From: Planctomycetaceae bacterium
GTDB taxonomy: Bacteria; Planctomycetota; Planctomycetia; Pirellulales; Pirellulaceae
NCBI GenBank assembly: GCA_007694185.1
Contig: RECD01000102.1
Span: forward strand, 84,244-148,243
Length of the DNA stretch: 64,000 nt
Reading direction: 5' to 3'
Within the stretch, counting starts at the first letter, position 1. The number at the start of each line of letters is the position of its first letter. The position numbers were made by a program, and so were the translations under genes. Positions 40,079 to 45,689 of the stretch are shown one piece after another. The notes under the pieces are model-generated. The model saw nothing but the letters and a program-made list of their open reading frames with translations. It was not told the origin of the DNA and did not search any database.

Positions 40079-42271
40079 ATGAACCTACCTGCGCCCAAGC
40101 CGAACTCGCTCAAGCAAGATCTCGAGGCAGTGGCTTGGCTATTTCAGCAATTGCTGGTCGATTCTGGCTCGCCTGCCGATCGGCTCAAGGTCAGGCGTGC
40201 GTTGGACGAGGCGTCCGCAGCCTGGCCGCCTGGGATCGAGGACCGCTGGTGGAAATGGATCTACGAAACTTCTCGTAGTCTCGGGTTGCGATGCAAGGTG
40301 GTCGACTGCACCTTCAGTCAGTTAGCCGAGATCGTTCGAGAGGGGGCCCAAGTGATCACCCGGGTGGGTGAGACGCAGCAATGGAAGGCTGTCGAGCCCT
40401 GCAAGGGGCGGCACTTCCGCTTGCTCTGTCCCTTGATGGACCAGAACCGCGTTCGCCTGACGACGGCGAAGTTGAAGGACGCCCTGGCGATTTCTGACCG
40501 CAATTCACTGATCCGCTGCGTCGTGCTCGAGCCGCGGTTGGCCGGGGCAGCCCAATCCGAGATAGATCCCGCCGAGCGAACGCCGTTTCAGCGGATGGTG
40601 TCTCTGCTGCATGCCGAGCGTGGGGACATCTGGGTCATTTTGGTCTATGCCTTCGTTGCCGGGGTGCTCGGTCTGGCGACCCCGCTGGCGGTCGAGTCGT
40701 TAGTCAGCACCGTTGCCTTCGGACGGGTCCTGCAGCCGATCGTGGTGGTCGCGTTGATGTTGCTGGCGTTCCTGTCGTTCTCGGCGGTGATCGTCGGTTT
40801 GCAGACTTATGTGGTCGAAATCATCCAGCGGCGGTTGTTCGCCCGGGTGGTCGCGGACCTCTCTTTTCGGTTGCCACGGGTGGAGACGAAGGCGCTCGAC
40901 GGGAAAGACGCTCGCGAACTCGTCAACCGATTTTTCGATATCGTCACGGTGCAAAAGGTTTGCGCCTCGATGTTGCTCGAAGGCATTTCGGTCGTCCTGT
41001 TCGCCTTCATCGGGATGGCCGTCCTGGCGTTCTATCACCCGTTTTTGCTCGGCTACAACATCGTGTTGTTGGCGTTGCTCGCTTTCGTGATCTTGGTGCT
41101 CGGCCGCGGCGCGGTCAAAACTTGCATCAAGGAGTCGAAAATCAAGTACAAGACGGCGGCTTGGTTGGAGGAGTTGGTCGCGTGCCCGACCACGTTTCGC
41201 AACGGGGGGGCGGCGGAATTCGCGTTGGACCGGGCGGATCACCTGACGTATGAATACCTGGAAGCCCGACGGGCACACTTCCGAATTCTGCTTCGCCAGA
41301 TCGGCTTTTCGCTGGGGACGCAAGCCTTGGCCAGCACCGTGCTGCTCGGCATCGGTGGCTGGTTGGTGATTTCCGGACAGTTGACGCTCGGGCAATTGGT
41401 CGCTTCGGAGTTGATCGTCGCGGTGATCGTCGGCGCCTTCGCAAAACTCGGTAAGTACATGGAAATTTACTACGACCTGATGGCCGCCGTCGATAAGCTT
41501 GGCGTGTTGTTCGATCTGCCGATGGAGCGCCAGGATGGGCTGCTGTTCCTCGCGTGCGACCGACCGGCGGAGGTGATTTTCAGCGACGTCGGCTACCGGG
41601 GTTGGCCGGGCCAGACGGGGTTGAGTGGGCTCAACCTGACCGTCCGATCCGGTGATCGGTTGATGCTCTGCGGTCCCTCGGCAGGCGAAAAGACGATGCT
41701 GATCGACATGCTGTTTGGCATGCGGAGTCCCGAGTCGGGGCACATCGCGATCAACAATGTCGACCCCCGCGATCTCCGCCCCGATGCGCTGCGTCGGGCT
41801 GTCTCGCTCGTCCGCGACGCCGAGATCTTTCATGGAACCCTTGCCGAAAACGTTCACCTGGAGCGGCCCGATGTTTCGACCAGCGATGTTCGCGAGGCCC
41901 TGGAGGACGTCGGACTGATCGACGAAGTGCTACGGTTGCCTGACGGCTTGGAAACGGAACTTTTCGACAACGGCTATCCGTTGACACGCAATCAAGCCTG
42001 CAAGCTGATGATCGCCCGGGCCATCGTCGGCAAACCGAGGCTGTTGTTGGTCGACAGCACGATCGACGGTTTACCAGACCAGGACGTTCGTCGTTTGACA
42101 TCTTTGTTGGTCGACGCGCGGCAACCCTGGACTCTGGTGTTGGCGACAGGACGCAGCGATGTCGCGGAGGCTGGCAAACAGTTGCTCGATTTGACTCATC
42201 GGCGCCCCAGCGAAAAAACGGCTCCTTTACGGGAGATCACCTTGGCGACCTCGGAACCCGTGGCGGAGTGA
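40079..42271 (+). CDS. ABC-transporter-like protein (N-terminal C39-like domain, TMD, degenerate nucleotide-binding domain)
   Basis: ABC exporter-like TM region (DIWVILVYAFVAGVLGLATPLAVESLVSTVAFG...); NBD scaffold with SGLNLTVRSGDRLMLCGPSAGEKTMLIDMLFGMRSPESGHIAINNVDPRDL and AEIFHGTLAENVHL, but altered catalytic motifs; followed 8 bp later by an HlyD-like gene. Confidence 0.85.
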   Translation: MNLPAPKPNSLKQDLEAVAWLFQQLLVDSGSPADRLKVRRALDEASAAWPPGIEDRWWKWIYETSRSLGLRCKVVDCTFSQLAEIVREGAQVITRVGETQQWKAVEPCKGRHFRLLCPLMDQNRVRLTTAKLKDALAISDRNSLIRCVVLEPRLAGAAQSEIDPAERTPFQRMVSLLHAERGDIWVILVYAFVAGVLGLATPLAVESLVSTVAFGRVLQPIVVVALMLLAFLSFSAVIVGLQTYVVEIIQRRLFARVVADLSFRLPRVETKALDGKDARELVNRFFDIVTVQKVCASMLLEGISVVLFAFIGMAVLAFYHPFLLGYNIVLLALLAFVILVLGRGAVKTCIKESKIKYKTAAWLEELVACPTTFRNGGAAEFALDRADHLTYEYLEARRAHFRILLRQIGFSLGTQALASTVLLGIGGWLVISGQLTLGQLVASELIVAVIVGAFAKLGKYMEIYYDLMAAVDKLGVLFDLPMERQDGLLFLACDRPAEVIFSDVGYRGWPGQTGLSGLNLTVRSGDRLMLCGPSAGEKTMLIDMLFGMRSPESGHIAINNVDPRDLRPDALRRAVSLVRDAEIFHGTLAENVHLERPDVSTSDVREALEDVGLIDEVLRLPDGLETELFDNGYPLTRNQACKLMIARAIVGKPRLLLVDSTIDGLPDQDVRRLTSLLVDARQPWTLVLATGRSDVAEAGKQLLDLTHRRPSEKTAPLREITLATSEPVAE

Positions 42272-42278
42272 AGCGATC

Positions 42279-43754
42279 ATGGCTACCGAAAGAATCCCCG
42301 CCGGCCCGCTTGCGAACCGCTCCCTGCGACGTACCCCGCTAGCGCCGGTAGCGTACAGCGAATCGTTGATGCCAGCACTCAGGTTGACCCGGTCTTCCCG
42401 GATAGCGAGACAGATTTCGAACGTGATGCTGGTCGGACTCGCCATCACGACGGTGCTGATGACCCTGGCGCCCTGGCAGCAATCGCTCAGCGGCAACGGG
42501 ACGGTCCTGGCCTACGCCCCCGATCAACGTCCCCAGGTAGTTCAATCGCCAGTTAGCGGTCGCTTCGTCCGTTGGGGCGAGAACATTTACGAAAACGTTC
42601 GTGTCGAGGAAGGGCAGGAAATCGTCGAATTGGGAGATATCGACGAAGGCTACATCGAACGGTTGCGGCAGCAATTGGTGAACAGCCAGCGAGAACTCGA
42701 TGCCACTGGGGATGGGCTCGAGGCGAGCAAGCGGGCGTTGTTGGACGCCAAACGCGTGGTCGACGCCTATCAGGACCAGGTCGTCGCCTACACCACGGTG
42801 CGGCGTGAGACGGAGGCCGCCCAAGACGCCTTTGTGGAGATGGCCAGGAAAAAAATTCAAGCGGAGCAGCAGCAGTTGGTCGAGTACCAAGCTGCCCTGC
42901 CTCAACTGCAAGCCGAGTACGAGCGAATGAATACGCTCCAGATCGAAGGCAACGTCTCGCTCCAGCGTTACCAAGAAATCCAACGCAAAGTTCAGGAGCA
43001 GCTGGCCAAGATTCGCCGCGGAGAAGCTTACGTCCAGTCCGCGGAGTCCGAACTGGAGGGGAAGATTCGCGAACGCGAAGCGAAGATCCAAAAGGCTCAG
43101 GTCGATATCGATTATGCCGAGGCCACTTTGAGAAAATCGCGGGGTGACGTGTCCAAGGCCGAAGGCGATGTCGCGAAGATGGAGCAAGCGTACAACAAGG
43201 CGGAAAAAGATCTCCGCGATATGGAGACCACACTTTCTCGCCAAGAAAGTCAAGTTGTCAGGGCACCCTTCGACGGATTCCTCGTCGAAATCAATCCGAA
43301 CGTGACCACGGCGATCCTTCGGCAGGGCGACCCGATCGCGACGATCGTTCCTGAAACGACCGATCGCTCGGTGCAACTCTGGCTTTCCGGCAACGACGCT
43401 CCGCTGGTTAACCCAGGGCGACACGTGCGTCTGCAATTCGAGGGCTGGCCCGCGATCCAGTTCACGGGTTGGCCGTCCGTGGCCGTGGGGACTTTCGGCG
43501 GGGAAGTCATTTCGGTCGATGAGAAGGACGACGGCCAGGGCCGGTTCCGAGTGCTCGTTCAGCCCGATCTCGACGACAACCCGTGGCCGAGCGAACAGTT
43601 CCTCCGCCAGGGAACGCGTGCCAACGGCTGGGTGCTGCTGGAACAGGTGCCGCTGTGGTTCGAGGTCTGGCGAAGGCTCAACGGCTTCCCCCCGATCGTC
43701 GAAATGGAAGGCTACGGCAAGGTTCCCAAATCTCCGAAACTCCCCAAGCTCTAG
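42279..43754 (+). CDS. HlyD/membrane-fusion-protein family, long coiled-coil
   Basis: Single N-terminal TM, lipoyl halves GTVLAYAPDQRPQVVQSPVSGRFVRW and VVRAPFDGFLVEINPNVTTAILRQGDPIATIVP separated by long heptad-rich helix. Confidence 0.9.
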   Translation: MATERIPAGPLANRSLRRTPLAPVAYSESLMPALRLTRSSRIARQISNVMLVGLAITTVLMTLAPWQQSLSGNGTVLAYAPDQRPQVVQSPVSGRFVRWGENIYENVRVEEGQEIVELGDIDEGYIERLRQQLVNSQRELDATGDGLEASKRALLDAKRVVDAYQDQVVAYTTVRRETEAAQDAFVEMARKKIQAEQQQLVEYQAALPQLQAEYERMNTLQIEGNVSLQRYQEIQRKVQEQLAKIRRGEAYVQSAESELEGKIREREAKIQKAQVDIDYAEATLRKSRGDVSKAEGDVAKMEQAYNKAEKDLRDMETTLSRQESQVVRAPFDGFLVEINPNVTTAILRQGDPIATIVPETTDRSVQLWLSGNDAPLVNPGRHVRLQFEGWPAIQFTGWPSVAVGTFGGEVISVDEKDDGQGRFRVLVQPDLDDNPWPSEQFLRQGTRANGWVLLEQVPLWFEVWRRLNGFPPIVEMEGYGKVPKSPKLPKL

Positions 43755-43994
43755 GCTTGAGTCGCGACAAGGCTAATGCGGCGGTATTGAGCCAAGAATC
43801 GGATTTGCGAATCAAGCCTTCCCACCGCTACAGTCGATAAACTCCGAAAGGCTGGCAGAGTCGCTCCAGTCCACCCTTGGGGTGGGCGCGGCGACGGCCC
43901 GCTTCGAGGCAGTTTCTCGGAGTGGCGGGCTCGAAGCATTCGACCTGGCCAAGGATTTAGGCAAGCACCTCGCCATGGAAGGCTGATCGTTTTG

Positions 43995-45689
43995 ATGCGT
44001 CGCGTAGCGATCGTTCTGATGATCGCGACGGTGGTGGGATGTTCATCCTCGCCGCCGCGGCGACACGTTGCCCAGCAGCAATCGGTCCGGCCGGCGGCCG
44101 CGCCGGCCGATCCGGGAACCGTTCGGCTGACGTCGGCGATCGACTTGACGGAAGATTCCCTCCCGCCGGGCGAGGACTCGACCGGGGTCGAATCGGACGC
44201 CGATCCGAACGAACTGATTGCGCCCGACTCGACTTCGGCCGACGCGGATTCGCGCGAGCCGGCGATGCCGGAACCGGAATCACTGCCGCCACCGGTCGGC
44301 ACGCCTGATCCCGAAGCGGGCAGCTTGGCGGAGGCCGCGAAGTCAGACCCGAACGAAACGCTCGCGTTTGACGAAGTGATCGACTCGGTCTACCGGGCTT
44401 ACCCGCTGGTCGCCGCGGCCATCCAGCAACGCGGCATCGCGGCCGGGGACCGTTTGGCGGCCCAAGGCAACTTCGATCTTGGGCTGAACGCGTCTACCGA
44501 GAACGGGACGGTCGGTTTCTACCAAACCCATCGGAACCGGGTGGGGTTGAGTCAGCCGCTCTACCAGGGCGGCGAAGTCTTCGCCGGCTATCGCATCGGC
44601 CGGGGCTTTTTTGAACCCTGGTACAAGGAACGCGAGACGAACGACGGGGGCGAGTTTCGCGCCGGCTTTGCCGCGCCTTTGGCACGCAACCGGCAGATCG
44701 ATCCGCGGCGGGCGGAATTGTGGCGGGCGAACGTCGGGGTGCAGGCAGCGAATCCTGAAATTCAGGCCGAGGTGATCGCGTACGTCCGGCAGGCCGGCTA
44801 CGCCTACTGGCAATGGGTTGCGGCGGGTGAGAAGGCTCGCATCACCGACAGGATCTTGGAACTCGCCGAAGACCGCACCGAAGGGATTCGGCGTCAGGTG
44901 GAGGAAGGGTTGGTCGATCCTCCTGTCCTGACCGACAACTTGAGGCTGATCGCCGAACGCCAGGCGGCGCGAGCGGATGCGCAGCGCCGGCTACGTCAGG
45001 CGGCCATCGAATTGTCGCTGTACTATCGAACTCCCGAGGGCGATCCGTTGATCCCGGGGCCTGGGCGCCTACCGAGATTTCCTGAACCTCCTGCCGTCCA
45101 GGAGGAGCGAATGAACGACGATGTGATCGAGGCGATTCGCCAACGTCCCGAGATCGCGGTGTTGACGTTCATTCAGCAGCAATTGCAGATCGATTTGGCC
45201 CAAGCGGGCAACGAGTCGCGGCCAAATTTGGATGCGGTGGTCTCTGCGGCCCAGGATGTGGGCGATCCGGCTACGCCGCTGAATGACAAGGGGCAGTTCG
45301 AGTTGGACGCGGCCTTGTTCTTCGATGTGCCCGTGCAGCGTCGCAGAGCCCGCGGGAAGATATTGGCGACCCAAGCGAGGATCTCGCAAGTCAACTCCCG
45401 ACGAAGGCTGGTGGAAAACCAGATCGTTGCCGAAGTCCAAGCGGTATACGCCGGTTTGGAGGCCGCCTTCGAGCGGGTACACCTGACCAGGCAGGCGCTG
45501 GAATATGCGGAGGATCTGGCCCGCCGAGAACGTCGCAACTACGAACTCGGGTCCACCGACCTGTTGACCGTCGCACTTCGTGAGCAATTCGCGGTCGAGG
45601 CTGCGGAAAAGGCCGTGGACGCCCTGCTGTTGTACTTCTTAGCACAGGTCGACTACCGGGCAGCCTTGGCCGCTGACCAAGTTCCCTGA
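43995..45689 (+). CDS. TolC-like outer-membrane efflux lipoprotein
   Basis: Lipobox-like MRRVAIVLMIATVVGCSSS; two helical OEP-like repeats; NRVGLSQPLYQGGEV; LAQAGNESRPNLDAVVSAAQD. Confidence 0.88.
   Translation: MRRVAIVLMIATVVGCSSSPPRRHVAQQQSVRPAAAPADPGTVRLTSAIDLTEDSLPPGEDSTGVESDADPNELIAPDSTSADADSREPAMPEPESLPPPVGTPDPEAGSLAEAAKSDPNETLAFDEVIDSVYRAYPLVAAAIQQRGIAAGDRLAAQGNFDLGLNASTENGTVGFYQTHRNRVGLSQPLYQGGEVFAGYRIGRGFFEPWYKERETNDGGEFRAGFAAPLARNRQIDPRRAELWRANVGVQAANPEIQAEVIAYVRQAGYAYWQWVAAGEKARITDRILELAEDRTEGIRRQVEEGLVDPPVLTDNLRLIAERQAARADAQRRLRQAAIELSLYYRTPEGDPLIPGPGRLPRFPEPPAVQEERMNDDVIEAIRQRPEIAVLTFIQQQLQIDLAQAGNESRPNLDAVVSAAQDVGDPATPLNDKGQFELDAALFFDVPVQRRRARGKILATQARISQVNSRRRLVENQIVAEVQAVYAGLEAAFERVHLTRQALEYAEDLARRERRNYELGSTDLLTVALREQFAVEAAEKAVDALLLYFLAQVDYRAALAADQVP

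Follow-up and report, generated by a model that had tools for sequence, protein, structure and literature searches.

A three-gene locus in a 64,000-nucleotide stretch of a Planctomycetaceae genome (the whole stretch is hereafter called the window) encodes an ATP-binding cassette (ABC) exporter-like protein with a degenerate nucleotide-binding domain (NBD), a HlyD-like periplasmic adaptor or membrane fusion protein (MFP), and a TolC-like outer-membrane protein (OMP). The ABC protein is a member of a distinct family that occurs in Planctomycetota, Bacteroidota, sphingomonads, and Sericytochromatia. The ATPase is the defining feature of ABC transporters; in this family its residues are dispensable throughout, and one clade has dispensed with the NBD altogether, with the adaptor, the channel, and the transmembrane domain (TMD) being retained. 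Judging from sequence, the locus is probably a stand-alone tripartite envelope exporter whose ABC-fold subunit works independently of ATP hydrolysis by its own NBD.

Degenerate ATPase motifs in the window protein and its family

A previous sequence-only reading had reported the three genes in this order on one strand, an exporter transmembrane region with a recognizable NBD scaffold, and an intact frame of 730 codons, all of which agreed with the open reading frames and with Pfam matches to ABC_membrane and ABC_tran (Table 1). Its gaps of 8 bp and about 240 bp were measured as 7 bp (ABC-MFP) and 237 bp (MFP-OMP). The letters and coordinates given for Walker A were also correct, but two consensus glycines instead of one are changed (G4 to Ala535 and G6 to Glu537), with Lys538 and Thr539 unchanged. 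The reported lack of the Q-loop Gln, the LTRNQ signature, the replacement of the Walker B Glu by Ser, and the absence of the H-loop His were confirmed in the sequence and against two exporters of the same genome (L104 and L105). As these aligned controls show Q, LSGGQ, DE, and H at the corresponding positions, the motif readings represent the homologous catalytic columns. Structure prediction, one of the checks proposed earlier, suggested an intact NBD fold (predicted local distance difference test score, pLDDT, of about 70-90); the whole model, whose mean pLDDT was 61.7, was used for the NBD fold and helix order only.

Across 60 relatives and 392 genomes from the phylum, orthologs (E<1e-66) stood well apart from ordinary ABC exporters, whose matches had E values of about 1e-38 or weaker. 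Orthologs were detected in 29 of the relatives (the window's own genome not counted) and in 43 of the 392 genomes; for the 'same class' group, the count was 23 of 28. In Bacteroidota, 90 of 346 genomes had family matches at E<1e-90, and further relatives were found in Sericytochromatia and on sphingomonad plasmids. Among 72,556 plasmid records, a TMD-only query retrieved 22, all from sphingomonads and Bacteroidota, versus 3,721 with the full-length query, indicating that the TMD alone is diagnostic of the family. The proteins analyzed included 62 from Planctomycetota and 110 from Bacteroidota, and no description of the family was found in the open-access literature. One planctomycete genome has a second paralog (L097, G049:C15:213177-214619) with an in-frame TGA, which is possibly a decaying copy.

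A motif survey compared 161 members that have an NBD with 22 control exporters from the sampled genomes. LSGGQ was present in none of the members versus 15 controls, whereas the Walker A Lys, the catalytic Glu, and the H-loop His were jointly kept in 21 members (Planctomycetota 2/62, Bacteroidota 19/93, sphingomonads 0/5) versus 16 controls. In the proposed check on orthologs, what is shared across the family is the loss of the functional positions, with the replacing letters varying between lineages. In planctomycetes, both Glu (45/62) and His (31/62) were mainly replaced by Gly. The Walker A Lys was present in 142 members and all 22 controls, and its loss in 19 members corresponds to seven changes on the tree. 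It is absent from all five plasmid-borne sphingomonad members (L122, L123, L124, L127, and L128), which nevertheless carry the annotation of ABC transporter proteins and in one of which (L124) the NBD is no longer detected by Pfam. As a Bacteroidota group (such as L165, L166, and L174) has near-canonical Walker motifs and His and differs in the absence of LSGGQ, the family spans ATPases that may be active and others that are almost certainly inactive. Near-canonical Walker A/B and H-loop motifs together with an aberrant signature and Q-loop were observed in L165, L166, L169, L174, L239, and L241-L251, many of which have a long N-terminal extension (proteins of 700-839 aa).

Selection and loss of the NBD

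Conservation is inverted in this family, the TMD being more conserved than the NBD, which is the opposite of canonical exporters. The mean NBD/TMD identity ratio was 0.69 in planctomycetes versus 2.20 in controls, and in Bacteroidota it was 0.66 without Glu and His versus 0.96 when both were kept. Because the controls are mixed paralogs, comparison at matched TMD identity (0.45-0.6) is fairer: mean NBD identity was then 0.36 in planctomycetes and 0.62 in controls (based on 13 control pairs), and in Bacteroidota 0.32 in members without Glu and His and 0.42 in those keeping both. The median ratio of nonsynonymous to synonymous substitution rates (dN/dS) was 0.038 for the TMD and 0.074 for the NBD, and between the window and its sister sequence 0.096 and 0.208, respectively; these values are rough, with dS often >1, and lie far below 1 rather than near it. 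With family-wide losses in three phyla and so low a dN/dS, the earlier proposal of a pseudo-ATPase exporter, as opposed to gene decay, is strongly supported, and recent decay of a single copy was rejected. The loss of the same functional positions across the family, in an open frame under purifying selection, also exceeds what chance would give.

Some family matches in the Bacteroidota scan end where the TMD ends. In one Bacteroidota clade, the gene is complete but encodes a TMD only (333-360 aa), and is followed directly by the HlyD and TolC genes; L159-L162 are such genes, and L160 and L161 show an 8-bp overlap between the stop and the start of the adaptor. In all 17 NBD-less loci examined (L159-L162 and L181-L193), no NBD remnant was found, and the adaptor homology begins -7 to +89 nt from the TMD stop. 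One Bacteroidota family contained 40 NBD-less loci in 39 of 201 genomes, as judged by open frame and score gap. A quick TMD tree with several weak branches placed the loss at a single origin nested within members with a degenerate NBD. Short frames in G934 and G833, considered as further independent losses, proved to be contig-end truncations, and an isolated family TMD fragment in G939 (L255:2203-3165), which has neither NBD nor adaptor nearby, was not counted.

Energy source and alternative explanations

The sequence-only reading had suggested that the protein is powered differently, pairs with another NBD elsewhere, or has become a scaffold or gate. The first is the best remaining explanation and gains from the relatives that lack an NBD entirely, the energy source itself being inferred. 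Through HlyD and TolC, a TMD dimer would still export its substrate, which is more likely to be a small molecule than a protein, and the residual NBD may serve as a structural or ATP-sensing cap. By analogy, the most likely energy source is tentatively considered to be the proton-motive or ion-motive force, which would act on TMD residues that are conserved, for instance Glu444 of transmembrane helix 6 (TM6). It is likewise possible, rather than probable, that these systems form a natural and widespread class of tripartite exporters with a secondary-active ABC-fold pump in the inner membrane.

Several precedents are available. SbmA (SLiPT) is proton-driven, and ABC transporters that shed the NBD have been proposed as its ancestors (PMC13316013); MsbA without its NBD continues ethidium efflux using the proton gradient (PMC4979069), and in LmrA the TM6 glutamate E314 serves proton-coupled transport (PMC6155054); Glu444 is not equated with E314. 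In the helix order of the predicted model, Glu444 lies in TM6, about seven residues in from the periplasmic end, and His320 occupies the turn between TM3 and TM4; both residues are retained in all NBD-less members. His320 was absent from 6 of the 21 members keeping the ATPase residues versus 2 of 157 others, and Glu444 from 3 of 21 versus 3 of 157 (counts uncorrected for kinship), a distribution that suggests a switch to ion coupling. Several points weigh against ion-driven transport. Glu444 is the sole near-invariant membrane carboxylate, whereas SbmA has a glutamate ladder; as a marker of ATPase loss, Glu444 is only suggestive, since 18 of the 21 members keeping the ATPase residues carry it. 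The cytosolic loops that normally contact the NBD are conserved even in NBD-less members, and the MsbA-MD and LmrA-MD precedents are engineered truncations. Finally, nucleotide binding may still matter because most NBD-bearing members (142/161) keep the Walker A Lys.

The last point leads to an alternative of appreciable but lesser probability, in which the degenerate NBD would bind ATP through this Lys without hydrolysis, acting as a gate or sensor much like degenerate sites in heterodimeric exporters, and another force would drive transport. The window protein keeps both Lys and Thr in an NBD whose fold is predicted to be intact, and the degenerate site 1 of ABCC7 holds ATP for minutes (PMC7756269); however, two Walker A glycines are replaced in the window, Lys has been lost in 19 members including all five sphingomonads, and one clade has lost the whole NBD. 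The ABC protein may also have a scaffold or gate role.

It is unlikely that the protein combines into a heteromer with a separately encoded partner, either a canonical ABC exporter or an ATPase. Canonical exporters are present in the sampled genomes, and a mixed assembly is thinkable because the HlyB-HlyD assembly contains three HlyB dimers (PMC11026475). However, a partner ABC gene in the operon was sought without success, no second ABC gene being conserved within or beside the cassettes examined, and the window's genome has only two other clear exporter-type matches. A search of four NBD-less genomes with the family NBD revealed no dedicated orphan NBD: matches above 100 bits were frames of 583-813 aa, with ordinary full-length exporters at the top. 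Genome searches also found no full-length family paralog alongside an NBD-less gene. These results disfavor the suggested pairing, while a general exporter ATPase may be shared.

An unorthodox but active ATPase, with changes elsewhere in the NBD making up for the substituted residues, appears quite improbable. The 19 Bacteroidota and two planctomycete members that keep Lys, Glu, and His could hydrolyze ATP, and dN/dS of the NBD is low, but in the window the Walker B Glu, H-loop His, Q-loop Gln, and signature are altered together, the replacing letters differ between lineages, and NBD-less relatives exist. Gene decay, with which the motif losses, the absence of the gene from many planctomycete genomes, and the in-frame TGA of the G049 paralog would be compatible, has a negligible probability and is refuted for the family as a whole by the intact frame, the three-gene cassette preserved over three phyla, and dN/dS versus the sister sequence of 0.21 (NBD) and 0.10 (TMD).

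Related systems, cassette organization, and implications

Type I secretion systems (HlyB-HlyD-TolC; TIGR01846/TIGR03375) and PCAT-type exporters resemble the window locus in gene order, HlyD-like adaptor, and TolC-like channel, the ABC, MFP, and outer-membrane factor genes of the HlyB type also lying together. PCAT1 and HlyB were the best Foldseek matches of the window protein (alike in TMD and NBD fold), with whole-chain alignments covering about 670 columns, N-terminal region included. However, the window NBD lacks canonical Walker A/B, signature, and H-loop motifs, the protein scores far below the curated cut-offs of the HlyB and LssB models (159.7 vs 725.55 and 155.1 vs 693.1 bits), its family conserves the TMD more than the NBD, and no substrate gene was recognized, although no search aimed at substrates was made. 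SbmA/BacA (SLiPT) share an ABC-exporter-type TMD that works without an NBD, which parallels the mode of action proposed here for the NBD-less relatives (L159-L162 and L181-L193). In contrast, the window protein has an NBD, matched only ABC_membrane and ABC_tran and not SbmA_BacA in Pfam, keeps the coupling-helix and cytosolic loops, shows a single near-invariant transmembrane Glu with no glutamate ladder, and is encoded in a tripartite cassette together with HlyD and TolC, whereas SbmA is an importer. In its NBD-less form, the system would work most like SbmA, yet by the tests made it is not a SLiPT member.

In LmrA-MD and MsbA-MD, the TMD alone also transports on an ion gradient (PMC6155054, PMC4979069), but these are laboratory truncations of active ATPases, whereas here NBD loss is natural, inherited, and found in a tripartite system. 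In TAP, TM287/288, and CFTR, heterodimeric exporters of which one site is degenerate, one NBD has likewise lost the catalytic Glu, His, and signature (PMC7756269), but a canonical site is kept in the partner NBD; no such partner was found in the operon here. A type I secretion-related cassette has also been discussed with a non-ABC energy source in planctomycete SecA_DEAD-associated HlyD/M50 loci (PMC4452313); identity with that system was rejected, as it lacks an ABC homolog and its genes differ. Because the window system is not SLiPT, lacks the catalytic motifs of type I secretion, and falls below the model cut-offs, it is best regarded as a separate variant among tripartite ABC-fold exporters.

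Table 1. Features of the three-gene locus in the window
Feature	Position	Strand	Basis or remark
ABC-exporter-like gene, NBD degenerate	40079..42271	+	730 aa; open reading frame; Pfam ABC_membrane + ABC_tran; orthologs
N-terminal region, ~160 residues	40079..40558	+	No Pfam match; pLDDT low
TMD, residues 168-482	40580..41524	+	Best-conserved section of the family
His320, TM3-TM4 turn	41036..41038	+	96% conserved
Glu444, TM6 carboxylate	41408..41410	+	97% conserved, including every NBD-less member; candidate ion-coupling residue
Degenerate NBD, residues 498-702	41570..42184	+	Pfam; predicted fold intact, pLDDT ~70-90
Walker A GPSAGEKT, residues 532-539	41672..41695	+	Two consensus Gly lost; Lys/Thr retained
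Q-loop region SLVRDAEIF	41804..41830	+	No Gln
Signature LTRNQ instead of LSGGQ	41981..41995	+	Sequence and aligned controls
Walker B LLLVDST	42041..42061	+	Asp659 retained; catalytic Glu replaced by Ser660
H-loop LATGRSD	42140..42160	+	His replaced by Gly691
HlyD-like periplasmic adaptor (MFP), 491 aa	42279..43754	+	Pfam HlyD_3; next gene conserved in cassettes examined
TolC-like outer-membrane factor (OMP)	43992..45689	+	Pfam OEP; conserved as third gene

In the loci examined from planctomycetes, Sericytochromatia, Bacteroidota, and sphingomonads, the three genes as a rule share a strand and follow one another as ABC-MFP-OMP. Exceptions are L083 and L095, where an OMP gene precedes the ABC gene, L094, where the OMP gene is on the opposite strand, and a few loci in which one component was undetected. 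No further conserved neighbor was found in the planctomycete cassettes examined; two recurrent pairs (DUF1592/DUF1552 and DabA/Mrp-type genes) were rejected as substrates, their positions being variable. A TetR-like gene lies immediately upstream of many flavobacterial cassettes; this hints at small-molecule induction, and the gene could encode a sensor of the cassette substrate. In Bacteroidota, such regulators lie at L033:5310-6014, L039:5307-5978, and L164:4720-5400. Within the window, the OMP gene starts with TTG (alternative ATG at 43995/43998), and its product is probably a lipid-anchored lipoprotein because of an N-terminal lipoprotein signal with the lipobox VVGC (43992-44050). No Pfam domain was matched in the N-terminal region of the window ABC protein, whose location is suggestive of a C39-like domain such as that of HlyB.

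If the proposed energization is true, these exporters would add a further class of tripartite systems to those driven by ABC, RND, and MFS pumps, and the annotation 'ABC transporter ATP-binding protein' (e.g., of a sphingomonad member on NZ_CP155757.1) can mislead on the energy source. The family would preserve the steps of a conversion from a near-canonical to a degenerate and finally a deleted NBD, and such living intermediates would provide a natural experiment on whether ion gradients can drive the ABC-exporter fold, a claim so far based on SbmA and engineered truncations of LmrA and MsbA.

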